From Chitinophaga pinensis (GTDB lineage: Bacteria > Bacteroidota > Bacteroidia > UBA7662): a DNA stretch of 37,936 nucleotides. The first letter of the stretch is position 1; the number at the start of each line of letters is the position of its first letter. Shown piece by piece: positions 1 to 10,919 of the stretch. The notes beneath the pieces are model-generated. The model made no database searches. It was not told the origin of the DNA and worked only from the letters and a program-made list of their open reading frames with translations. Location: positions 1 to 37,936 of the forward strand of contig CAMCHJ010000002.1 in NCBI GenBank assembly GCA_945874665.1, in the 5' to 3' direction. The translations under genes were made by a program, and so were the position numbers.

Positions 1-1
1 C

Positions 2-409
2 GTGTTGCAAACACAATATGACCGTAGCCACACAGTTTCTATTGAAGGAAAACCTGAATTATTCCTTACAACGGATAACCCTGCTGTTGGAGACAAATCA
101 AAATTGAACCCCGAAGATTTATTGGTTACAGCTATTTCATCCTGCCATATGCTATCCTACTTGTATCTCTGTGCAATAGAAGGAATTGTAATTACAGCTT
201 ACACCGACAATGCAACAGGTATACTGATTGAAAAGACAAGTGGTGGCGGAAATTTTAAAGAAGTAACTTTAAATCCAATATGTTATGTTGCAGATAAAAG
301 CACCATCGAAAAAGCTATCGAATTGCACCACAAGGCTCACGAAATATGCTACATAGCCAATTCTGTGAATTTTGAAGTAAAGTGCAATCCAACCTGCAAA
401 ATAGATTAA
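2..409 (+). CDS. OsmC-family peroxiredoxin-like protein, N-terminus cut by window edge
   Basis: The 135 visible residues match the OsmC/Ohr fold family, whose members use a cysteine pair to reduce organic hydroperoxides in the cytoplasm. Residues 36-52 carry the family core (NPEDLLVTAISSCHM), with Cys48 as the likely peroxidatic cysteine. Cys116 in HEICYIANS is the likely partner. The GTG at position 2 is probably not the true start: OsmC proteins normally have about 20 more residues before the segment seen here, and the frame is open to the edge. The next gene starts 109 bases downstream on the same strand. The family call is secure; the exact substrate is unknown. Confidence 0.88.
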   Translation: MLQTQYDRSHTVSIEGKPELFLTTDNPAVGDKSKLNPEDLLVTAISSCHMLSYLYLCAIEGIVITAYTDNATGILIEKTSGGGNFKEVTLNPICYVADKSTIEKAIELHHKAHEICYIANSVNFEVKCNPTCKID

Positions 410-518
410 AGAATCATATGAATGTTTGCACCGCACAGACAAAACCAATAACAGTAAATGTTTCAGCAAACATCAAAGCGCAATTTTTATTATCGTAGAA
501 AACTAAAAACAAAGTAAA

Positions 519-1325
519 ATGACAAGGAAATTCTTCGTGACTATGCTTGCAATAATAACGTTTGTAAATATTGCAAACGCTCAAGTGAAAAATGAACCGA
601 AAGATACATTAATAGTAAAACCTGAAATATTTAATAGTTTAAAAAAGGCAGAGCCAGGCGATATTGAATCTGGTACGCCGATGATGTTAAATCCTTCTAC
701 TACTCCAATGTATTATGAAAATTTTATATTGATCAAAGAAGGTGATTTTATAAAAATAATGTTGTCAGGGGATTATATTCCAGAGCCCTATATTGACAGT
801 AATAAAGTAGTAAAGGCCTTCTTGTTAAGAAAAGCAACAGAGCTTGAGAAGGAGCAAATGAAGCAAATGCAAGCTAATATGCAAAATCCCGGACAAAATA
901 AAAGTGAATTAATTGGAAAAGAGGCATTCCCATTTTCAGTGACAGATATTTCCGGCAAAAAGTACTCGCTTGATAAGTTAAAAGGAAAAGTAATTGTTAT
1001 CAATTTTTGGTTCGTTGAATGCAAACCATGCGTAATGGAAATTCCAGAGCTAAATGACTTAGTTGATAAATATAATGGAAAGGAAGTGGTTTTTCTTGGT
1101 TTTGCCACTAATGACAAATCGAAAATTGAGAATTTTTTAAAAACAAAAACCTTTAAATACAACATAATTGCTGACAGTAAAGAGGTAGCAGGACTATATA
1201 AAGTGAATTCTTATCCAACCCATTTAGTAATAGATACGAATTCTATAATCTCAAACTATATGATTGGCTTAGGGCCGACTACTGTCAAAGACTTAGATAA
1301 GACAATTGAATCACTCTTAAAATAA
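519..1325 (+). CDS. Secreted TlpA/ResA-type thioredoxin-fold protein
   Basis: This 268-residue protein begins with a Sec signal (residues 1-21, ending NIANAQ). Residues 22-125 form a region of unknown fold. Residues 132-268 form an AhpC/TSA-TlpA thioredoxin domain. The active site is at residues 163-171, FWFVECKPC, with the CKPC redox pair at Cys168 and Cys171; the cis-proline loop is the later NSYPTHLVID. Family members sit in the periplasm and reduce or resolve cysteines in exported proteins or heme apoproteins. The substrate cannot be read from context. The gene lies in the AT-rich left region among unrelated same-strand genes, with no operon partner. Confidence 0.88.
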   Translation: MTRKFFVTMLAIITFVNIANAQVKNEPKDTLIVKPEIFNSLKKAEPGDIESGTPMMLNPSTTPMYYENFILIKEGDFIKIMLSGDYIPEPYIDSNKVVKAFLLRKATELEKEQMKQMQANMQNPGQNKSELIGKEAFPFSVTDISGKKYSLDKLKGKVIVINFWFVECKPCVMEIPELNDLVDKYNGKEVVFLGFATNDKSKIENFLKTKTFKYNIIADSKEVAGLYKVNSYPTHLVIDTNSIISNYMIGLGPTTVKDLDKTIESLLK

Positions 1326-1673
1326 CCATGCCTTACAGCGCTCAAGCGCATCCCGATAAGATTAGGCGCCTGTGCGCGGCACTTTAACTGCAAGGCTTCA
1401 AAGTTGGCTGTGATGAAACAAATTTTTCCTACAGGCTCTTTAATTAATATAACTGTGCCATCCTCAGCAATCGGATACATCAATATATTCATCAAAAGTG
1501 CGTTATTCGATTGAACAAAAAACAGTCAATAGCTGAAAAATGAACATACAAAACCAAATGGACACCTGTCACATTATACTGTATGGAAATGGCACCTCAG
1601 TGATTGAAAACCAAGCGATGTCTCGGTCAGCCTTTTTAAACGTAGATTTATCCAAATCACATAATCACCCACG
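1326..1673. other. 348-base gap with no convincing gene
   Basis: This stretch has no recognised gene. A minus-strand frame from 1495 down into the TlpA gene gives about 58 residues over the gap, but it resembles no family I know and then runs antisense to the TlpA gene. A 50-codon + strand frame from the ATG at 1540 overlaps the next gene's start and is equally unsupported. Short self-complementary pieces occur near 1340-1375 (GCGCT-CA-AGCGC and AGGCGCCT). The shared blocks found in the later spacers are not evident here. It may be a decayed gene or a diverged spacer. Confidence 0.5.
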
Positions 1674-2654
1674 ATGGCTATTCGAGGTCTAATTTTATTG
1701 CTTTTTTCGGTTATCTCTTTCTTGGGGTATGCCAAAGATTTACGTCCTCAGGATTTGAAAATTACGTTGGAGCAGCTTCCTGTTTTAGAACACCAAACGA
1801 ATATAATCCCGCTGCGAATAACCATTCAGAATGTTTCAAATCATCGTGGTAGCATTCTTGTTCCGTATGCCCAAAACTATGGAAAACCTCTTTTTCAACT
1901 ACGTGTTTATGAAATCGACCAAGCGGGTCAATATAATTTGGTTTATACCTCTCAAGATTTTTTGGATATGGACACCTCAAAATATAAAACAGAGGGTAGT
2001 TTTTGGCAATTGGAACCAAATGAGCGGTATTCCTTGCCTTTGTTTGTAAACGACGCCCAAAATGCCAGATTGCGATTTGAATCATCCATTCAAATTCCTG
2101 ATTTGAAAAAGGGGAAATACGCATTTCAAGTGCTTTACTGTCCAGAAAATTCTTCGTTTTTCAAGTATGCATTTCGCCAAATTACAGACACAGACCCTAT
2201 TCCCGAAGATGATGTAGATAAATATCCAGATCATTTTATTTGGGAGGGGAGTTTTGCAAGCAATTTTTTGGAGTATCCGTTTGAAATTTTGCCAAAACTT
2301 GTCGTTTATGAGCCAACAAAAAGTGCGTTATGCCGTGCTGTGAGGAAAGAAAACTGGAGCAAGGTGAAGAGAATTTGGAGTAATCGTGACAAAAACAAAT
2401 CAGACAATTGCGTCTTATGGGTTTATAATGGGGCACAGTCGATTCAGGCCTCACTACCAGCATATACAGGACACGAAGTGATCTTTTACACAGATTCCGG
2501 CATCAAGTATGTAACGTTTACTTATCAAGTAGGCAAAATTTACCGCTTACGATCACGTATGGCTTGGCTGTTTTATGCAACAGGTTTCAGACGACCTCCT
2601 TTCAAAACTTCCAAAGTGAATTGGAGCAAGTTGATTCAAGTTGAAGAAATTTAG
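1674..2654 (+). CDS. Secreted protein of unknown function
   Basis: The 326-residue product has a clear Sec signal (residues 1-20, hydrophobic LILLLFSVISFLGYA) followed by KDLRPQDLKITLEQL. The body alternates short beta-type segments typical of immunoglobulin-like exported proteins, for example the NIIPLRITIQNVSNHRGSI segment and a later YAFQVLYCPE strand, so a beta-sandwich is plausible. I recognise no catalytic motif or named family. The start was chosen because the signal peptide begins directly at this ATG. The gene is followed at 2660 by the first spacer carrying shared blocks. Real gene: likely. Function: unknown. Confidence 0.7.
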   Translation: MAIRGLILLLFSVISFLGYAKDLRPQDLKITLEQLPVLEHQTNIIPLRITIQNVSNHRGSILVPYAQNYGKPLFQLRVYEIDQAGQYNLVYTSQDFLDMDTSKYKTEGSFWQLEPNERYSLPLFVNDAQNARLRFESSIQIPDLKKGKYAFQVLYCPENSSFFKYAFRQITDTDPIPEDDVDKYPDHFIWEGSFASNFLEYPFEILPKLVVYEPTKSALCRAVRKENWSKVKRIWSNRDKNKSDNCVLWVYNGAQSIQASLPAYTGHEVIFYTDSGIKYVTFTYQVGKIYRLRSRMAWLFYATGFRRPPFKTSKVNWSKLIQVEEI

Positions 2655-2659
2655 TATAA

Positions 2660-2879
2660 ATGGCGTTGATGCTGGATTTATTGCAAAATGTCGCGCTGTG
2701 ATTAACGGAGTAAATGGACAATAGAATGACAGCACAATGCATAAAAAGCAATCGCTTAATACAGATTTTGCGTCAAGCGGGGTGGCGTGCAAACTTGGAG
2801 CGTTGTTCTTTTATTGTACTTTATTGCTAAATTCAAGCGATGAAGTTCGAAGCCCGCCTTTCGCCAAGCCCGAAAACCA
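2660..2879 (+). repeat. Cassette-like spacer A (shared blocks)
   Basis: The non-coding spacer between the secreted unknown and the Ntn-hydrolase carries three blocks also seen in later spacers. ATGGCG lies at 2660-2665, just after the upstream stop. TAAATTCAAGC lies at 2828-2838. A block at 2846-2879 reads TTCGAAGCCCGC, then CCAAGCCCGAAAACCA, and ends 10 bases before the next start codon. Similar blocks in similar order occur at 4220-4323, and in part at 5428-5571 and 6441-6477. The order (end of gene, block, filler, block, start of gene) suggests modular gene-plus-spacer units. Confidence 0.5.
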
Positions 2880-2888
2880 TTTTGAAGA

Positions 2889-4190
2889 ATGCGGATTAAC
2901 AAAACTTATATAATTCTATTTGCCTTTCTTAGTTTAGCACTCTTTGGGTATAAGATTCAAGCATGTAGTATGTATAAAATCACCGTTGATGGAAAAACAA
3001 TGGTTGGTTGTAATGAAGATGCCTGGAGAACAACTTCAAGCATCTGGTTTGAAAATGCTAAAAACAGCCGTGAATATGGCGCAGGCTTTACAGGGTCAAG
3101 ACAGGTAGGAGCAAATAGAACTGCCCCTCAATCAGGAATGAATGAAAAAGGACTTGCATTTTCTCGATTGGCAGCATATTACCCAAAGCAAAAAAAAACA
3201 TTTACAAATAGACTTATAATCGGAAATGAAGTTGATTACCTGACAAGCATCTTACACAAATGTGCAACTGTGAAAGAAGTCAAGAAATATATTGAACAAT
3301 ACGACCATAGTGTGTTTTTAGATGATGTGTTTATCTATGTCGACAGCTCAGGTAGTTATTTGATTGTAGAGCCATATACATTAATAGAAGGTAATGAATC
3401 GCATTATGTACTCTCTAATTTTTGTCCATCGATTACAGACCGTGAACAAGCAAGACAACTCGAACGCTACAGAAATGGAGAAGATTTTTTAAATAATCGT
3501 GAAGTAAATGCCTCTTTATCTTTTTGTAAAGACCTTTCAGACACAATGCATGTTTGCAGAAGCAGAAATGGAGATGGCACACTTCTTACTTCTATTTGGG
3601 ACACACAGGACAAATTGGTTAACCTATACTTTTACCACTCGTTTGATACCACCGTACAATTTAATTTGACTGCAGCCTTGGCGAAAGGCGACCACACCCT
3701 TAGTATCCCCGATTTATTTCCAAAGAACTCAGAATTTGAAAGACTTGCTAACTATAAGACTCCTCATAATACTCCTATTTTTAGAATCTCACTTGTAGTC
3801 TTAGTTGGAATTTTAACCTTTTTCGTCCTTCTCATAGGCCTTTTCTTAATCAGGAATAATAGCATAGGAATCTCTATCAGGGCAGCAATACTCATAGCGG
3901 GGATGAATTTATTATTGGGAGGCTATTTGTTTGTATTAGCTACCAATCTATACATCTACTATTTTGATGCGCCTTACATCCATTACAGTTCAAATTTAAT
4001 AAGTGCCTCATCCTACATGCCGTTTTTACTACTCTTGACTATTGTTCCTTTTACCTTATATACCTTAAAACAAAGTAAATCAATCAAAACAAAACTTTGG
4101 ATAAAGGCCATGTTAGTCTCTAATAACATGATTTATATTGTGTTAATTTTAGCATTTGGGTATTGGGGCTTGTTTAATATTTGGAATTAA
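2889..4190 (+). CDS. Ntn-hydrolase (choloylglycine hydrolase/penicillin acylase-like) with C-terminal membrane domain
   Basis: Residues 1-25 form a signal peptide ending IQA, so cleavage would expose Cys26 as an N-terminal nucleophile (CSMYKITVDG). This is the hallmark of the choloylglycine hydrolase/penicillin V acylase/C45 group, which cuts linear amides. Family-type positions follow: Asp44 in GCNEDAW and Asn85 in SGMNEKGLAFS. After about residue 295 come four predicted membrane helices (about 298-321, 328-355, 371-391 and 402-430), which would tether the enzyme with its catalytic domain outside the cytoplasm. Total length is 433 residues against about 320-350 for stand-alone enzymes. The substrate is unknown; N-acyl lipids or amino acids, bile acids or acyl-homoserine lactones are family possibilities. 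Confidence 0.82.
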   Translation: MRINKTYIILFAFLSLALFGYKIQACSMYKITVDGKTMVGCNEDAWRTTSSIWFENAKNSREYGAGFTGSRQVGANRTAPQSGMNEKGLAFSRLAAYYPKQKKTFTNRLIIGNEVDYLTSILHKCATVKEVKKYIEQYDHSVFLDDVFIYVDSSGSYLIVEPYTLIEGNESHYVLSNFCPSITDREQARQLERYRNGEDFLNNREVNASLSFCKDLSDTMHVCRSRNGDGTLLTSIWDTQDKLVNLYFYHSFDTTVQFNLTAALAKGDHTLSIPDLFPKNSEFERLANYKTPHNTPIFRISLVVLVGILTFFVLLIGLFLIRNNSIGISIRAAILIAGMNLLLGGYLFVLATNLYIYYFDAPYIHYSSNLISASSYMPFLLLLTIVPFTLYTLKQSKSIKTKLWIKAMLVSNNMIYIVLILAFGYWGLFNIWN

Positions 4191-4219
4191 GAAAAAGCAT
4201 TCAACTGCATCTATAACTT

Positions 4220-4323
4220 ATGGCGGGGAAGTGGTAAATTCAAGCTTTTTACATTTAAGTAAGTTTGGTGCTAGCATACGGTCAAATGCTTCGAAATCCG
4301 CTTCTTCACCATGCCCGAAAATG
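4220..4323 (+). repeat. Cassette-like spacer B (shared blocks)
   Basis: The spacer after the Ntn-hydrolase gene repeats the pattern of spacer A. ATGGCG lies at 4220-4225, TAAATTCAAGC at 4235-4245 (identical to spacer A), and the block TTCGAAATCCGC then CCATGCCCGAAAATG lies at 4290-4323. It ends about 58 bases before the next start. The match to spacer A is clear in both position and sequence although the flanking genes are unrelated. Confidence 0.5.
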
Positions 4324-4381
4324 TGAGCAGTCATGCTTGGGTAGGCAGCTAACTCCAAAATACCTGCAAGAAATCAACTAA

Positions 4382-5407
4382 ATGCGTAAGGAACTTTTCA
4401 AATTTATTAAGTACGCTTTGCTGTTATGTGTAGCAGCATGTTTACTTATCGCCTTCATTCCTAGCGTTTATGATGTTCCTCAGTTACAAAAACGTAAAAA
4501 CACGCAATATTGGGATTTACCAACAGGTTCTAAGATTGCCTACACTTTAGTAGCTGCCAAAGGCACAAAGAAACCGCATCCGATTATTTATTTGCACGGA
4601 GGACCTGGAGGATTTGTCTCAAACAGCCACATTAAGTCATTAGCACCGCTTTCAGAAGACGGCTACGACATTTATCTATATGACCAAATCGGTAGCGGGC
4701 TATCAGACAGATTGACAAACATCAAGGAGTATACTGCTGACCGACACAAAAAAGATTTGGAAGAAATCATAAAGAAGATAGGCGCAGAGCAAGTAATCCT
4801 AATCGGACAATCATGGGGTGCTATACTTGCTATATTATTTATAGCTGACAATCCACAAAAAGTTCAGCAGGTTATTTTCACAGGGGCGGGGCCTATTCAA
4901 CCATTTCGTGTGGATTTGCGAAGCACCACCCCACCTGACAGTTTGAACTTGAGGAACCCACCTTACTCAAACAAACAGGCCAATGAAAAATCAAAAAGCG
5001 TCCGAACTGCTGTGGTAAGCTTTTGGGCAAAAGCCTTCGGCAAAAAACTTGCATCTGATAAAGAGGCAGATGATTTTCAAACGCATCTTAATCAAGAATT
5101 GAACAAAGCAACCGTATGTGATACTTCCAAAGCATTGAAAGCGGAAGGTGGAGGAGGTTTTTATGTGCAAGTAATGACCGTGCAGAGCTTCAGTGAAACC
5201 AAAGACCCAAGACCAAAACTTAAAGGCCTGAAAATGCCTATCCTGATTATGAAATGACAGTGCGACAATCAACCATGGGTCTACATGCATGACTATTTAG
5301 AGCACTTTCCAAATTGCCAATTAAAAATTATCCCCGATGCAGGTCATGCTATTTCAGTGGAGCAACCGGAACTTTATCTAAAAACTATGCGTGACTTTTT
5401 GAATTAG
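4382..5407 (+). pseudogene. Alpha/beta-hydrolase (S33-like) interrupted by an in-frame TGA
   Basis: The frame codes for an alpha/beta-hydrolase: an N-terminal membrane or signal segment (residues 10-26), the oxyanion motif HGGPGG (72-77) and the nucleophile elbow GQSWGA with Ser144. At codon 292 (5255-5257) there is a TGA. The same frame then continues without another stop for 49 codons to a TAG at 5405-5407. That tail contains QCDNQPW with the expected catalytic Asp295 and DAGHAISVEQPE with catalytic His322. A GGA-to-TGA change would explain it, since relatives have glycine before this Asp. The truncated 291-residue product would lack two of three catalytic residues. Other genes here stop at TGA, so general recoding is unlikely; read-through or a base-call error remain possible. 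Confidence 0.85.
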
Positions 5408-5420
5408 TACATACATTGCC

Positions 5421-5580
5421 AACAGCTATGGCGTACAATCGCATGAACCACTGACACGGATTTTGCTTCATTTGGCGTACAGCGCAAATAAAAACAGCTG
5501 CGTGAATAATAAACTTTGGCGCTGGTCTCCAGCTTTGGCTTCATAATCCTCCAACCTAAAGTCCGAAACCCTTAGCTGTT
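5421..5580 (+). repeat. Cassette-like spacer C with terminal inverted repeat
   Basis: The spacer between the hydrolase and the methyltransferase has ATGGCG at 5428-5433 after the gene end, and a TTCATAATCC...GTCCGAAACCC block at 5540-5571 before the next start. Its ends form an exact 8-bp inverted repeat: AACAGCTA at 5421-5428 and TAGCTGTT at 5573-5580. This would bring the two ends of the single-stranded spacer together, as in recombination sites of the integron attC type. Sequence match to classical attC cores is weak, so this is a suggestion only. Confidence 0.45.
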
Positions 5581-5606
5581 ATTTTAAAACAACCGATTTT
5601 AGAAAA

Positions 5607-6416
5607 ATGAACACAGACCAAAAGTATATAGAAATAAACCGGCAGTCTTGGAATAACAGAACCGACATACACATACAATCGGAATTTTACGACCAAGCCG
5701 GGTTTCTGAAAGGGAAAAACTCTCTAAATGACATTGAGCTAAACTTGCTTGGCAACATAAAAGGAAAATCGATTTTGCATTTACAATGTCATTTTGGACA
5801 AGACACAATTTCGTTAGGAAGACTTGGTGCAGACGTTACCGGCGTTGACTTGTCGGACAAAGCCATTGACCGTGCAAAACAAATTACAAAGGACACAAAT
5901 TCAAATGCAAAGTTTATTTGCTGCGATGTTTACGACTTACCAAACCATTTAAACGAAAAATTCGATGTGGTATTTACAAGTTATGGCACCATTGGTTGGT
6001 TGCCTGACTTGGACAAGTGGGCCAAAATTATATCCCGGTTTTTAAAGCCAAATGGACAGTTTGTATTTGTAGAGTTTCATCCTGTTGTTTGGATGTTTGA
6101 CGATAACTTTGATAAAATTAGTTACAGATATTTTAATTCTGGAGCCATTATAGAAACAGAAAATGGAACTTACGCAGACAAAAAAGCAGACATAACCCAA
6201 TCCTATGTAATGTGGAATCATGGTTTAAGTGAAGTAATAAACAGCTTAATTAGTAATGGGCTTGAAATCAATGCTCTTGACGAATTTGATTATTCGCCAT
6301 ACAACTGCTTCCAGAACACCCTAGAGTTTGAACCGAATAAATTTAGAATTGAGCATTTAAATAACAAAATACCAATGGTTTATTCAGTAATAGCGACAAA
6401 TAAAAACAATAGGTGA
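5607..6416 (+). CDS. Class I SAM-dependent methyltransferase
   Basis: The 269-residue protein has the Rossmann-type methyltransferase order. Motif I is at residues 56-66 (ILHLQCHFGQD), the ribose-binding acid is Asp81 in VTGVDLS, motif II/III lies at about 103-125 (KFICCDVYDLP and FDVVFTSYG), and a post-motif strand at about 150-160 reads FVFVEFHPV. It resembles the small stand-alone methyltransferases common in Bacteroidota accessory regions. It should be cytoplasmic because no signal is seen. The methyl acceptor is not inferable; neighbours are unrelated. It is the last gene of the AT-rich left region, and its end is followed by spacer D. Confidence 0.88.
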   Translation: MNTDQKYIEINRQSWNNRTDIHIQSEFYDQAGFLKGKNSLNDIELNLLGNIKGKSILHLQCHFGQDTISLGRLGADVTGVDLSDKAIDRAKQITKDTNSNAKFICCDVYDLPNHLNEKFDVVFTSYGTIGWLPDLDKWAKIISRFLKPNGQFVFVEFHPVVWMFDDNFDKISYRYFNSGAIIETENGTYADKKADITQSYVMWNHGLSEVINSLISNGLEINALDEFDYSPYNCFQNTLEFEPNKFRIEHLNNKIPMVYSVIATNKNNR

Positions 6417-6440
6417 TATTCGTTTTCAAAAAGCGGCAGT

Positions 6441-6477
6441 TTGGCGCTTTCATGAAAGCACAGCATTAAATCCAAGC
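6441..6477 (+). repeat. Cassette-like spacer D (partial)
   Basis: After the methyltransferase stop, TTGGCG (6441-6446) and TAAATCCAAGC (6467-6477, one base different from spacers A and B) recur in the expected order. The downstream CCGC...CCCGAAA block is missing, which fits the right-hand end of the shared-spacer region. Confidence 0.35.
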
Positions 6478-6617
6478 CTTTTTAAATAGTTCTGAAAAGC
6501 CCCACCCTCAGGGTAGCTGCAAGCCCTTGCACATCAACCTGTGCTTGTATAGATAATTTATTGTCTTTCAAATAGATAAAAGATTGTACTAACTACAAAA
6601 TGTATTTGAATTCAAGC

Positions 6618-6637
6618 TGATTTTAGTGCTAAAATCA
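6618..6637. promoter_or_regulatory. 20-bp palindrome upstream of eutBC-like gene
   Basis: TGATTTTAG and CTAAAATCA form a perfect 9-bp inverted repeat around a TG spacer, about 105 bases before the ATG of the lyase gene. A second small repeat (GTAC-TTTA-GTAC) follows at about 6647-6658. The size and symmetry suit a dimeric regulator site; a small hairpin is the alternative. No regulator gene is next to it. Confidence 0.35.
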
Positions 6638-6742
6638 AACCATTTCGTACTTTAGTACATCGTGCTGGTACTCGAGTGGAATGATCCTATCGCCCACGGC
6701 GCAACCCATAATGTTAAAAGTGATAAATGATATCCCCAGCTC

Positions 6743-9121
6743 ATGAATAAAACCAGATTTGGCTTCCATCACAGTAAGGCAAAGGAGACTCCGAAGCAAC
6801 ATTTAGCCTTTTCTAACTACGTTCCTCGCCGAGATTTCCTGCTTCAACTGGGATTGGTGGGCATTTCGATGATGCTTACCAAGGTTCATGTTTTCGGTAT
6901 GCCGGCCTTTCCGAAAAATCGGCTCATTGACTTTAAGGCCTCGCTAAAGGAGGAGGATATTTTCACATACATCCGTCGAATCACAGGAGGATTCGACATA
7001 CTGCTTTACAAACAGTTGGTTGGTGCGGCCAATGAATTCAAAGAAGGCGATGAAATTGCGGGCATTGCCGCTGCTCATGAGGGTGCTAGAAAAATGGCAC
7101 GCGAGCTTATCGCCAATACGCTGATTTCTGATGTTTTCGAACATCCCCTTTTTAAGGACGAACAGTATGACCTCATTCAAAGCACTACTGTACATGACGA
7201 GAAAGTGATGGGCATGAACTTCCGTCAATTAAAAGCATTTCTCCTTGAATCAGATGAAGCCGCCATCAAAATCATCATGCCTTCACTTTCAAGCGACGTT
7301 ATTGCATTAACTGTAAAACTCCTAACCAATGACGAATTAATACGTATTAGCAGCAAAGTCTTTAATCCACTACCCAACAGTAACATTGGAGCAAAAGGTT
7401 ATGTTAGTGCACGCGTGCAGCCAAATTCGCCGACGGATAACATCGAAGATATAGTATGGCAGGTATTTGATGCTTGGTCATATGGAGTAGGCGATTTGGT
7501 GCTTGGAACCAACCCCGTTTCGAGTGACCCGATTATGGTGGCACAAATCGAAGCGGCGCTTCACGATTTGCTTGTTACGTTCGAGTTGGAGCATACAATG
7601 CCGAATTGCGTGCTTTCACATATTGACATTCAATCGCATGTTGAAAATATACAGCCAGGCACCACTGGTATTTGGTTTCAAAGCCTCGCAGGTACGGTTG
7701 ATGCCAATCAAACCTTTGATGTGACCATAGAAAAAATGCAGGCACATGCCGATGCTCGGACAGGCAACCCCTATGGGCTTTATGCCGAAACAGGCCAAGG
7801 GGCCGACGCCACCAACGGCCATGGTGAAGGTTTTGATATGGTTGTACATGAGTCACGCAAATACGGCTTCTTGCGAGCTTTAAAGCAACGCATGAATAAG
7901 CAAAAAATCAACAATACCGAGCCTTGGGTATTTCTCAATGATGTAGCTGGCTTTATTGGACCAGAGGTATTTAGGACCAAAGAGCAACTTGTTCGTTGTT
8001 GCCTAGAAGACTTGGTAATGGGCAAGCTGCATGGGCTTACGATTGGGCTCGACATCTGCACGACGCTACACATGGACGTTACCCTAGATGATCTTGATTG
8101 GTGCATTGATCAGATTATGCCCGCCAATCCCGCCTACTTTATGGCCCTTCCAACGAAAAACGACCCAATGCTCAGCTACCTCACCACCTCTTTTGCCGAC
8201 CATGTGCGGGTGCGTGAGCAATTTGGCTACAAGGTAAATGATGCGATGTGGGCGTTTTTTAAGCGCATCGAAGTCATTGGCATCGACAATAAGCCCGCCG
8301 CAAATTTTGGCCAACCTAACCACGTTTATTTGCGCTATTGTAGAGCAAAAGGCGATATGCGCCCCGATGAAGCCATCTTGATGGAAGGCAAAGCTGCCAT
8401 GGACCGCATCCGCAAACGAGGCGTGCCTATTGCCGAAGGACACGGGGAAAAATTTTGGCAAATGCCCCCGTCATTAGACACGGAAATTCGGGAGCTATAT
8501 AAAGACGCCAAATATTGTTTATGGACTGAATGGGAGCTTGCCTATCTGCAGTCTATCAGAAATGCCATTGTAATATCATCGATGTCGAGCGACAGAATTG
8601 ACTATGTATATCATCCTGCTAGTGGTGAGCGCATTTCGCCTGAGAGTGTATTAGTCATACAAAGTCTCCGCAAAAAACTCAAAAAGAACCCCGCTGATGT
8701 GCAGATTATCATTTCCGACGGCTTGAACACCCGATCACTTATGGATGAAGAGCACCTCGAAACATTCCTGCCTGCCATCTACAAGAATTTGGCTGCACTC
8801 AATTTAACTATTGCTGAAGCGCCTATTGTGATTCGGAACGGACGTGTGCGCGCTGGCTACGAAGTTGGGGAGCACCTTTTTGGCAAAGCGGGAATGAGCA
8901 AACATTGTATTGTTCATATCATTGGCGAGCGGCCTGGTACCATGCACCGCAATTTCTCAGTCTATATTACTGCAGCACCCGCATCCACTTGGAATTACCA
9001 TGGCAAAGTCGATCACGATATTACACGTGTTATTTCAGGCATCAGCAATACAGCCTATTTGCCAAAAGCCGCAGCAACAGAAGTGACCGCGATTGTTGCG
9101 AAACTGATGGATGCAATGTAG
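6743..9121 (+). CDS. Ethanolamine ammonia-lyase, EutB-EutC fusion with Tat-like N-terminus
   Basis: This single 792-residue chain holds both subunits of adenosylcobalamin-dependent ethanolamine ammonia-lyase, which converts ethanolamine to acetaldehyde and ammonia. The EutB part spans about residues 78-505. Residues matching known EutB active-site positions are present: Arg224 and Gln226 in SARVQPN, Asn257 in GTNPV, Glu349 in AETGQG and Asp437 in GLDICTT. The EutC part spans about 580-792, with DVQIIISDGLN (652-662) and IGERPG (727-732). The usual EutC N-terminal GRAG motif is not clear, and a linker of about 70 residues joins the halves. EutB and EutC are normally separate proteins of about 453 and 295 residues. 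The N-terminus has a twin-arginine pattern (PRRDFLLQLGLVGISMML, residues 28-45), suggesting export. No eutA, eutH or shell genes are nearby. Confidence 0.93.
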   Translation: MNKTRFGFHHSKAKETPKQHLAFSNYVPRRDFLLQLGLVGISMMLTKVHVFGMPAFPKNRLIDFKASLKEEDIFTYIRRITGGFDILLYKQLVGAANEFKEGDEIAGIAAAHEGARKMARELIANTLISDVFEHPLFKDEQYDLIQSTTVHDEKVMGMNFRQLKAFLLESDEAAIKIIMPSLSSDVIALTVKLLTNDELIRISSKVFNPLPNSNIGAKGYVSARVQPNSPTDNIEDIVWQVFDAWSYGVGDLVLGTNPVSSDPIMVAQIEAALHDLLVTFELEHTMPNCVLSHIDIQSHVENIQPGTTGIWFQSLAGTVDANQTFDVTIEKMQAHADARTGNPYGLYAETGQGADATNGHGEGFDMVVHESRKYGFLRALKQRMNKQKINNTEPWVFLNDVAGFIGPEVFRTKEQLVRCCLEDLVMGKLHGLTIGLDICTTLHMDVTLDDLDWCIDQIMPANPAYFMALPTKNDPMLSYLTTSFADHVRVREQFGYKVNDAMWAFFKRIEVIGIDNKPAANFGQPNHVYLRYCRAKGDMRPDEAILMEGKAAMDRIRKRGVPIAEGHGEKFWQMPPSLDTEIRELYKDAKYCLWTEWELAYLQSIRNAIVISSMSSDRIDYVYHPASGERISPESVLVIQSLRKKLKKNPADVQIIISDGLNTRSLMDEEHLETFLPAIYKNLAALNLTIAEAPIVIRNGRVRAGYEVGEHLFGKAGMSKHCIVHIIGERPGTMHRNFSVYITAAPASTWNYHGKVDHDITRVISGISNTAYLPKAAATEVTAIVAKLMDAM

Positions 9122-9260
9122 AAGTTAACAAGTATATTCGACACCTTAAATCCGTAACAGGGCGGCAGTTAATGGTTCTAGAAATCGATACCTAAACTGC
9201 AGCTTATGAAAATAAAGATCAGACCCTAACTTGTTAGCAGTGTGGCACAACCAAATAAAA

Positions 9261-10919
9261 ATGAAAAACAAACCAACACCAGCAATCACCACCCTCACCC
9301 GCGCTATGGCTACGTGCATGGTTTTTTTAGCAATTTTACAATCCCCTGTTTCGAGCCAGGCACAACTGATAACAGACGATTTTGAAGGAAATGGCAATAT
9401 CACAACCTGGTATGGCGACAACTGCAGCCTGAATACAAGCTTCGCAAACCCACACCCGCAAGGCCTCAACACATCGGCTAACGTACTAAAATACCACGAC
9501 CAAGGCAGCCAATTCGCCAACGCACGCTTTGACGTGCCCACTAACTTGGACCTGGCTAATCAACATACCTTTTCCCTAAAAATATATGTGCCCAGCAGCA
9601 GCATCACCGGCAATGCACCCAATCAAGTTTCGTTAAAGCTTCAAAATGGCGCCAGCAACACGCCTTGGGCCACACAATCTGAAATCATTAAGCCAGTGGT
9701 GTTAGACCAATGGCAAATCCTCCATTTTGATTTTTCAAACGATCCGTATATCAATTTAGACCCCAATTCACTGCCACCGATACAACGCACAGACTTTAAC
9801 CGCGTACTCATTCAGGTAAATGGTGAAAACAACTCATTTCAGGTCATGGCTTATCTGGACGACATTTTTTTTAACGGCACCTTACCTACTCCCTCGCCTT
9901 ATACCCAGTTGGTTTGGTCGGATGAGTTTAACGGCAATGGACAAATAGACACTTCCAAGTGGTTTCACCAAACCCAATTGCCAAACATTGGAAGTTGGTA
10001 TAATGGCGAAATTCAGCATTACACCAATCGCTTAGCCAATAGCTTTGTAAGCAACGGATCATTGCACATTTCGGCTAAAAAAGAAAATTTCACAAACCAA
10101 GGACATACCAAAACACATACCTCAGCCCGTTTAAACTCAAAATTTGCCTTCACTTATGGGCGTGTCGAAGTGCGCGCCATCCTGCCTACCGGCATAGGTA
10201 CGTGGCCTGCTATTTGGATGCTTGGCAAAAACATTGATGAAAATGGGGCTTATTGGGACAATAACGGGTTTGGCACCACTCCTTGGCCAGCTTGTGGCGA
10301 AATTGACATCATGGAACATTGGGGTAACAATCAAAATTTTGTTCAGAGCGCTATGCACACGCCATCCAGCTTTGGTGGTACCATCAACAAGGGAGGCCAA
10401 ATGATACCCACTGCAAGTAGCGCTTATCACGTTTACGAACTCGAATGGAGTCCTACCAAAATGGTGTTCAGCATTGATAACCGCGTACATTATACTTATG
10501 ACCCACCGGTTAAAAACGCCAGTACATGGCCTTTCACAACCGACCAATATTTACTTTTGAATATTGCCATCCAACCCAGCATACTGCCCAGCTTTACGCA
10601 AAGCGATATGATTGTAGATTATGTGCGCGTTTATCAACTAGATGTTACCAGCGTGGCTGAAATCGCAGGCCGGCAGCCGTTATTGGTCTATCCAAATCCC
10701 GTTAACGATGCGGTCACCATTGAACTCCCCAATATCCCCAACCAGGTTGTTACTGTACGGCTGTTCAACACACAAGGACAGCTTCTTAGGGATCAAAAAA
10801 TTGCCTCAGAGCAACATTTGATAGTACTCAATCAACTGGAAGCTTTACCCACAGGCCTGTACCACCTGCTGATAGAAACCGACAGCGGTCGCCACTTCGC
10901 TAAATTCAATAAAAAATAG
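9261..10919 (+). CDS. Secreted GH16 beta-glucanase (laminarinase-like) with T9SS sorting domain
   Basis: The protein starts with a signal peptide (MKNKPTPAITTLTRAMATCM then a hydrophobic run, cleaved near SSQAQ). The ATG at 9261 is preferred over an upstream in-frame TTG at 9231. Residues 37-205 look like a carbohydrate-binding beta-sandwich. Residues 218-460 are a GH16 domain with the catalytic signature GEIDIMEHWG (346-355): Glu347 nucleophile, Glu352 acid/base. GH16 enzymes cut beta-1,3 or mixed-linkage glucans such as laminarin. The last 75 residues (VYPNPVNDAVTIELP through GLYHLLIET) form a type A T9SS sorting domain, so the enzyme is exported across the outer membrane. No SusC/SusD pair is nearby, so it is not in a typical utilisation locus. 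Confidence 0.93.
   Translation: MKNKPTPAITTLTRAMATCMVFLAILQSPVSSQAQLITDDFEGNGNITTWYGDNCSLNTSFANPHPQGLNTSANVLKYHDQGSQFANARFDVPTNLDLANQHTFSLKIYVPSSSITGNAPNQVSLKLQNGASNTPWATQSEIIKPVVLDQWQILHFDFSNDPYINLDPNSLPPIQRTDFNRVLIQVNGENNSFQVMAYLDDIFFNGTLPTPSPYTQLVWSDEFNGNGQIDTSKWFHQTQLPNIGSWYNGEIQHYTNRLANSFVSNGSLHISAKKENFTNQGHTKTHTSARLNSKFAFTYGRVEVRAILPTGIGTWPAIWMLGKNIDENGAYWDNNGFGTTPWPACGEIDIMEHWGNNQNFVQSAMHTPSSFGGTINKGGQMIPTASSAYHVYELEWSPTKMVFSIDNRVHYTYDPPVKNASTWPFTTDQYLLLNIAIQPSILPSFTQSDMIVDYVRVYQLDVTSVAEIAGRQPLLVYPNPVNDAVTIELPNIPNQVVTVRLFNTQGQLLRDQKIASEQHLIVLNQLEALPTGLYHLLIETDSGRHFAKFNKK

Follow-up and report, generated by a model that had tools for sequence, protein, structure and literature searches.

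The first 7 kb of the stretch of DNA studied here contain a row of genes separated by similar spacers. The stretch as a whole, hereafter the window, covers positions 1-37936 of the 176,479-bp contig C2 in a Bacteroidota metagenome-assembled genome (MAG; 2.29 Mb, 35 contigs, 96% complete). The genes encode, in order, an OsmC-like protein, a thioredoxin-fold protein, a protein of unknown family, a weakly AAT-like protein, an alpha/beta hydrolase and a methyltransferase. A preliminary description of the window had noted that these genes all lie on the + strand, as the list of open reading frames (ORFs) also gives them, and that they are AT-rich relative to the DNA on their right, which agrees with a GC content of 0.34-0.40 over positions 1-7000 and 0.42-0.52 further right. 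It had also compared the genes and spacers to the cassettes of integrons. Our analysis leads us to conclude, with a probability of about 0.88, that the region is a degenerate, integrase-less cassette array belonging to an integron type widespread in Bacteroidota. Below, S0 to S5 denote the six spacers of the window, G000 the source genome, Gnnn:Cn a genome and contig, and Lnnn an extracted locus.

Three of the spacers are matched by R1, a covariance model built from 19 sites of other genomes, none of them taken from the window. The attC-like site in S2 (2754-2885, + strand; 54.8 bits, E 9.4e-11) is degenerate, with TAATACA as its R'' core and ACCATTTT as its R' core. The degenerate site in S3 (4199-4330, + strand; 39.1 bits, E 3.3e-7) has a shortened left arm and reaches 43.4 bits from a start at 4211 in an unfiltered search. 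The third, in S4 (5449-5578, + strand; 40.2 bits, E 1.9e-7), is likewise degenerate and carries CCTTAGCTG as R'; BLAST aligned 5448-5588 with a site at G016:C16 at 74% identity. Against the whole source genome the E values of S2, S3 and S4 are 5.5e-9, 2.0e-5 and 1.1e-5, respectively. The resemblance noted at first exceeds chance, and the covariance model scores far above the chance level. Spacer S5 holds two probable site remnants, both on the + strand and with approximate ends: S5a (6417-6549), with a local alignment score of 78 to a relative's site, and S5b (6589-6720), with a score of 108. The latter displayed 83% identity over 6621-6701 to the source-genome site C9:87708 (BLAST, E 2.9e-14). 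Spacers S0 (410-518) and S1 (1326-1673) are not sites, scoring 24-28 against the 78 and 108 of the S5 remnants.

The structure of the sites is not apparent in a plain alignment of the six window spacers and becomes visible when sites of relatives are added. By local alignment, the pair S2/S3 scored 32, and the best of 200 dinucleotide shuffles reached 27. The pairs S3/S5 and S2/S5 were marginal (2 and 5 of 200 shuffles reached the same score), and the remaining 12 of the 15 pairs were not significant by local alignment alone. In Rfam, positions 1-9500 matched nothing but unrelated families, all below threshold. No real second copy of S4 turned up when it was compared with the source genome by BLAST; the other sites of this genome were found later by the covariance model. 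Among the blocks that had been described as shared by the spacers, TAAATTCAAGC and CCGC...CCCGAAA fall within the element. The element does not include the ATGGCG blocks at ~2660 and ~5428, and hence the claim that ATGGCG follows each stop codon does not describe a feature of it.

The relatives' sites came from a BLAST comparison of positions 1-6742 with 17 genomes of the family, in which spacer pieces matched clustered places, chiefly on contig C35 of G006 and contig C16 of G016. These places are co-oriented gene arrays with spacers of the form TGCTAACAGGCGTTTGGC...GCCAAGCGCCAAAACGTTAGCAG. The attC-like sites have a nearly constant length of ~133 nt, and the 19 used for R1 display a mean column identity of 71%, with AACA and CGTTA invariant. 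In the relatives, R'' and R' cores surround an imperfect hairpin; the window sites were found through the model and their cores are mutated. The consensus fold of the 19 sites, computed from a free MAFFT alignment, has 16 pairs, 13 of which changed on both sides. Across 106 sites, in an alignment that unlike the previous one was fitted to the structure, 91.7% of arm cells are paired (54.6% in shuffles) and all 16 pairs changed on both sides. The bottom strand folds more stably in 76 of these sites and the top strand in 29, a bias of the kind known for attC.

R1 sites occur in 8 of the 17 family genomes (E <= 0.01) and in 179 of 395 Bacteroidota genomes, representing 100 of 171 genera (E <= 0.001; this survey counted at most eight sites per genome and used stricter filters). 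The model had no match in one class 1 integron stretch, the sole comparison made with classical attC, which agrees with the original remark that the spacers do not obviously match it. In other Bacteroidota genomes the same kind of spacer stands between different genes, so the sites are not restricted to orthologous loci. The hydrolase cassette of the window provides an example: its homologue in G016:C6 displays 79% identity and has different neighbouring genes. The homology begins at window position 4330 and G016 position 196535, in both genomes the last base of the modelled site, and stops just inside the next site region. With a cassette that recurs among different neighbours and a spacer model far above chance, the comparison of these gene-plus-spacer units to integron cassettes is supported.

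We considered that the spacers might instead be dispersed hairpins, whether a REP- or MITE-like repeat or a 3' element with a regulatory role, that happen to lie between genes without any cassette recombination. Their hairpin shape, the decay of the window copies and the single copies dispersed through relatives (e.g., at G005:C3, G005:C11 and G006:C40) are in keeping with this idea. Yet a passive repeat predicts neither matched ends across the intervening gene, nor a strand bias relative to an integrase, nor an attI junction, which is why we disfavour it and regard it as very improbable given the results that follow.

In G006, a gene for a 369-aa tyrosine recombinase adjoins the array, upstream on the same strand. 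A search with an alignment of four such proteins (A3) recovered related recombinases in 117 of the 395 genomes at E <= 1e-50, and we took its 40 highest-scoring rows, which end at 366.9 bits (the next has 347.7), as the main type. R1 sites lie downstream on the same strand in 33 of these 40 and on the opposite strand in none; five of the seven without sites have less than 480 bp of contig remaining downstream. Forty lower-scoring recombinases included 11 with downstream sites on the same strand, 11 in divergent arrangement, which have open frames of 246-321 aa and sites on the other strand upstream, and 18 without sites. These were selected by hand, and L237-L239 were picked because sites had already been seen nearby, so 22/40 is not an unbiased rate. 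Among 80 loci from named records, all 108 R1 matches are on the integrase strand, with a downstream site in 40 loci (36 of the 42 where at least 1.5 kb was available) and an upstream site in two. The named records with an integrase include Flavobacterium psychrophilum DSM 3660, F. cucumis, F. succinicans and Paenimyroides aquimaris. Two contigs titled as Rhizobium and Bifidobacterium breve MAGs (L307 and L331) also bear the Bacteroidota-type integrase, probably because the bins are mislabelled or mixed.

Joining of cassettes between G and TT predicts complementarity between the R' half that opens a cassette and the R'' half that closes it. The R' of one site and the R'' of the next were complementary at all four variable positions tested in 62 of 71 neighbouring pairs. 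Between the two cores within a single site this was so in 11 of 111 cases, and the reverse comparison gave 4 of 71 (10 of 121 sites without a readable core were excluded). A corresponding attI junction was also found: the 9-nt complement of the first R'' is present exactly between the integrase stop and the first site in 31 of 33 loci, and cores from other loci match in 2 of 1038 comparisons. In 26 of these loci the junction lies 66-123 nt past the integrase stop and is preceded by a TATAAAnnA-like motif. For the short divergent integrase type, a matching junction was found in 8 of 11 loci. Matched ends across the intervening gene, integrase linkage (33/40), the location of all 108 named-record matches on the integrase strand and the attI junction led us to set aside REP and MITE repeats.

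Linkage, matched ends and the attI junction also led us to set aside modules of the dif type driven by XerC/XerD. Such modules would fit the source genome, where the only tyrosine recombinases found are two Xer-like proteins. However, dif sites are 28 bp, and the sites described here are ~133-nt hairpins with covarying arms. In the family, the Xer-length recombinases lie, by eye, away from sites, and the recombinases near sites in G003, G005 and G006 are of the N-terminally extended type. We consider a dif origin of the array the least probable of the alternatives, with hardly any chance of being correct.

The linked integrases differ from canonical IntI. Of 39 linked integrases, 38 have a distance of 58-59 residues between the catalytic-Lys motif and HxLRH. 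For canonical IntI this distance is 100 (20 of 20), and the four Xer rows, two of which are the same gene, give 64-66. This spacing was read with a text pattern that gave no value for one of the 40 main-type rows; the two outliers (130 in one of 39 main-type rows and 124 in one of 11 short-type rows) probably reflect a wrongly picked Lys motif. The linked integrase therefore does not have the roughly 41-residue (I2) insertion that characterizes canonical IntI. Four linked integrases scored 185-208 bits against TIGR02249, whose cut-off is 265, and a XerC-like protein of the source genome scored 102. In a tree of 103 rows (L169 and L227 were omitted from 105), canonical IntI and IntI1 group together (support 100/100). 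A second group (99/95) holds 38 of the 39 main-type rows, and weak support (93/66) joins the short divergent rows to four others. An AlphaFold model from a 28-row alignment (A5; mean pLDDT 84, pTM 0.52) predicts a beta-rich N-terminal part at approximately residues 1-72. The best Foldseek match of the model is the integron integrase VchIntI4 (2a3v, E 5.8e-17), with archaeal Xer and XerA next. When normalized by query length, the TM-scores are only ~0.4, which makes the domain arrangement uncertain. In L191-L197 (family f19) the integrase frame extends to ~490-500 aa, and in L191 an N-terminal WSxxxRxW-like motif occurs twice, as though the domain were doubled.

These proteins could be bystanders of arrays built by canonical, I2-bearing IntI. 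That enzyme is the known integron integrase, and it is found above the TIGR02249 cut-off in 105 of the 395 Bacteroidota genomes. Nevertheless, an R1 site lies within ~10 kb of only 1 of 20 canonical IntI loci (L260-L279, a selection from the rows above the cut-off), against 33 of 40 for the insertion-less type, and the attI junction stands beside the insertion-less gene. No match in the 17 family genomes reaches the cut-off. Together with the difference in Lys-HxLRH spacing, this led us to reject canonical IntI as the maker of these arrays, a role we find highly unlikely for it.

Based on these findings, we propose that each unit is a cassette composed of a gene followed by an attC-like site of ~133 nt. 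One strand of an intact site would fold alone as an imperfect hairpin. Cassettes would be joined by a tyrosine recombinase within the R' core, between G and TT, and the first cassette would enter attI, usually 66-123 nt after the integrase gene, and the resulting array would run in the same direction as that gene. The linked enzyme is a relative of IntI and XerA, mostly with an extra beta-rich N-terminal domain and without the I2 insertion; a second, shorter form stands divergent from its array.

Several observations weigh against this explanation. Its R' cores, ACCATTTT in S2, TGTGAGCAG in S3 and CCTTAGCTG in S4, replace CGTTA-type ends; the match between its cassette ends has been lost; R1 gives S5a and S5b poor scores (4.1 and 10.1 bits); and no attI-like motif was found in the window. 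As first described, no integrase is visible with the array; the 96%-complete assembly contains none, and no tyrosine recombinase was found on contig C2. The source genome has just seven R1 matches at E <= 0.01, one of them weak; the four outside the window are at C9:87679, 88414 and 89043, near a contig end, and at C5:115349 (the weak match, 31 bits). The bottom-strand folding preference is mild (76/106) and absent in S2-S4, and two of the 40 main-type integrases (L189 and L198) have no downstream site despite available sequence. Finally, recombination, single-strand folding in the cell and strand exchange by the linked integrase are what we infer from computed features, namely site homology, covariation, matching cassette ends, the attI junction, integrase linkage and absence of the insertion.

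We read the mutated cores, and an in-frame TGA at 5255-5257 of the hydrolase gene where the relative's homologue has glycine, as signs of decay, which may also be the cause of the low scores. Given the mutated core sites and the nonsense codon, the window array probably no longer recombines. The proposal of modular units is therefore supported in substance, with a window copy that seems to be decayed and not active. Its integrase has possibly been lost; alternatively, it may be encoded in unassembled DNA to the left of position 1, the place expected from the layout of G006, as contig C2 begins at position 1 and the sequence left of the array is absent from the assembly. Better preserved sites are found on contig C9 of the same genome, where a ParD/ParE toxin-antitoxin pair lies between the first two (~87.9-88.4 kb; positions 15885-16419 of L046).

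The gene content of the array is diverse. The gene preceding S2 (1674-2654, + strand) is an ORF of unknown family without a Pfam match, and the left end of its unit was not identified. It is followed by a cassette gene of 433 aa (2889-4190, + strand) with weak similarity to AAT (acyl-CoA:6-APA acyltransferase; PF03417, E 0.0017, below the cut-off). The next cassette gene, for the alpha/beta hydrolase (PF00561), spans 4382-5407 on the + strand and has the homologous cassette in G016:C6; its open frame stops at the TGA (4382-5257) and not at 5407. The last cassette gene (5607-6416, + strand) encodes a methyltransferase of 269 aa (PF13649 and PF08241). Several genomes of the family have homologues (63-69% DNA identity) in places where no R1 site lies, suggesting that this may be a captured chromosomal gene. 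To the right of the array, positions 6743-9121 encode one protein that matches EutB and then EutC (fused ethanolamine ammonia-lyase subunits) and has a twin-arginine-like start. This fusion was not found in the other 16 family genomes (E <= 1e-100), so the insertion site of the array is not comparable by synteny.

The wider system is reminiscent of sedentary chromosomal integrons (IntI-attI-attC), with which it shares cassettes of a gene plus an attC-like site, the order R''/L''/L'/R', the G|TT junction, an attI adjoining the integrase gene and toxin-antitoxin cassettes such as the ParD/ParE pair. Unlike those integrons, it has an integrase without the I2 insertion, sites of nearly constant length that belong to a type whose model does not match the class 1 integron stretch, and a main type that is co-oriented with its array. 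Classical integrons are usually divergent in layout, as was the class 1 integron examined here. The window, with three R1 attC-like sites and no integrase on the same contig, also has the composition of a CALIN (two or more attC sites with no integrase nearby), a term used for clusters of attC sites lacking integrase (PMC9024848). It differs in that its sites are of the Bacteroidota type and that the missing integrase may stem from the contig end at position 1.

In its account of this phylum, the IntegronFinder 2.0 study reports that previously just integrase-only elements were known in Bacteroidetes, and describes one complete integron there, in Salinibacter ruber (PMC9024848). The Natural History of Integrons names Bacteroidota among the phyla with integrons (PMC8618304). 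An IntI-specific additional domain is given among the defining characteristics of integrons in a paper on archaeal integrons (PMC9668308), and a classification of tyrosine recombinases, where it treats an integron-like subgroup, calls the insertion essential for integron function (PMC8138268). Here, attC arrays are linked to insertion-less members, a tie that was not found in that treatment of the subgroup. For Bacteroidota, we found neither such arrays nor integrases without the insertion at attC sites described in the titles and abstracts of the open-licence literature; preprints and papers behind subscriptions may differ. Our results support the view that the wider system works like an integron and differs in having an integrase without I2, a variant that we did not find described in this literature.

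Collectively, these findings make it likely that Bacteroidota hold a phylum-wide class of integrons with their own attC type, attI and I2-less integrases, largely missed by standard searches. If this is true, recognition of the folded attC must rely on means other than the I2 domain, since these integrases lack a domain held essential for attC recombination. Candidates are the extra N-terminal domain of the enzyme and two features of the site, its conserved arm pair (T-G or C-G) and the uneven loop next to the R core. Should the linked integrases work as we propose, the IntI-specific domain would not be required for attC-type recombination, and the origin of folded-attC recombination from Xer-like enzymes would become directly testable. 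A large, unsurveyed cassette pool would also be opened, including that of integrase-bearing Flavobacterium species.

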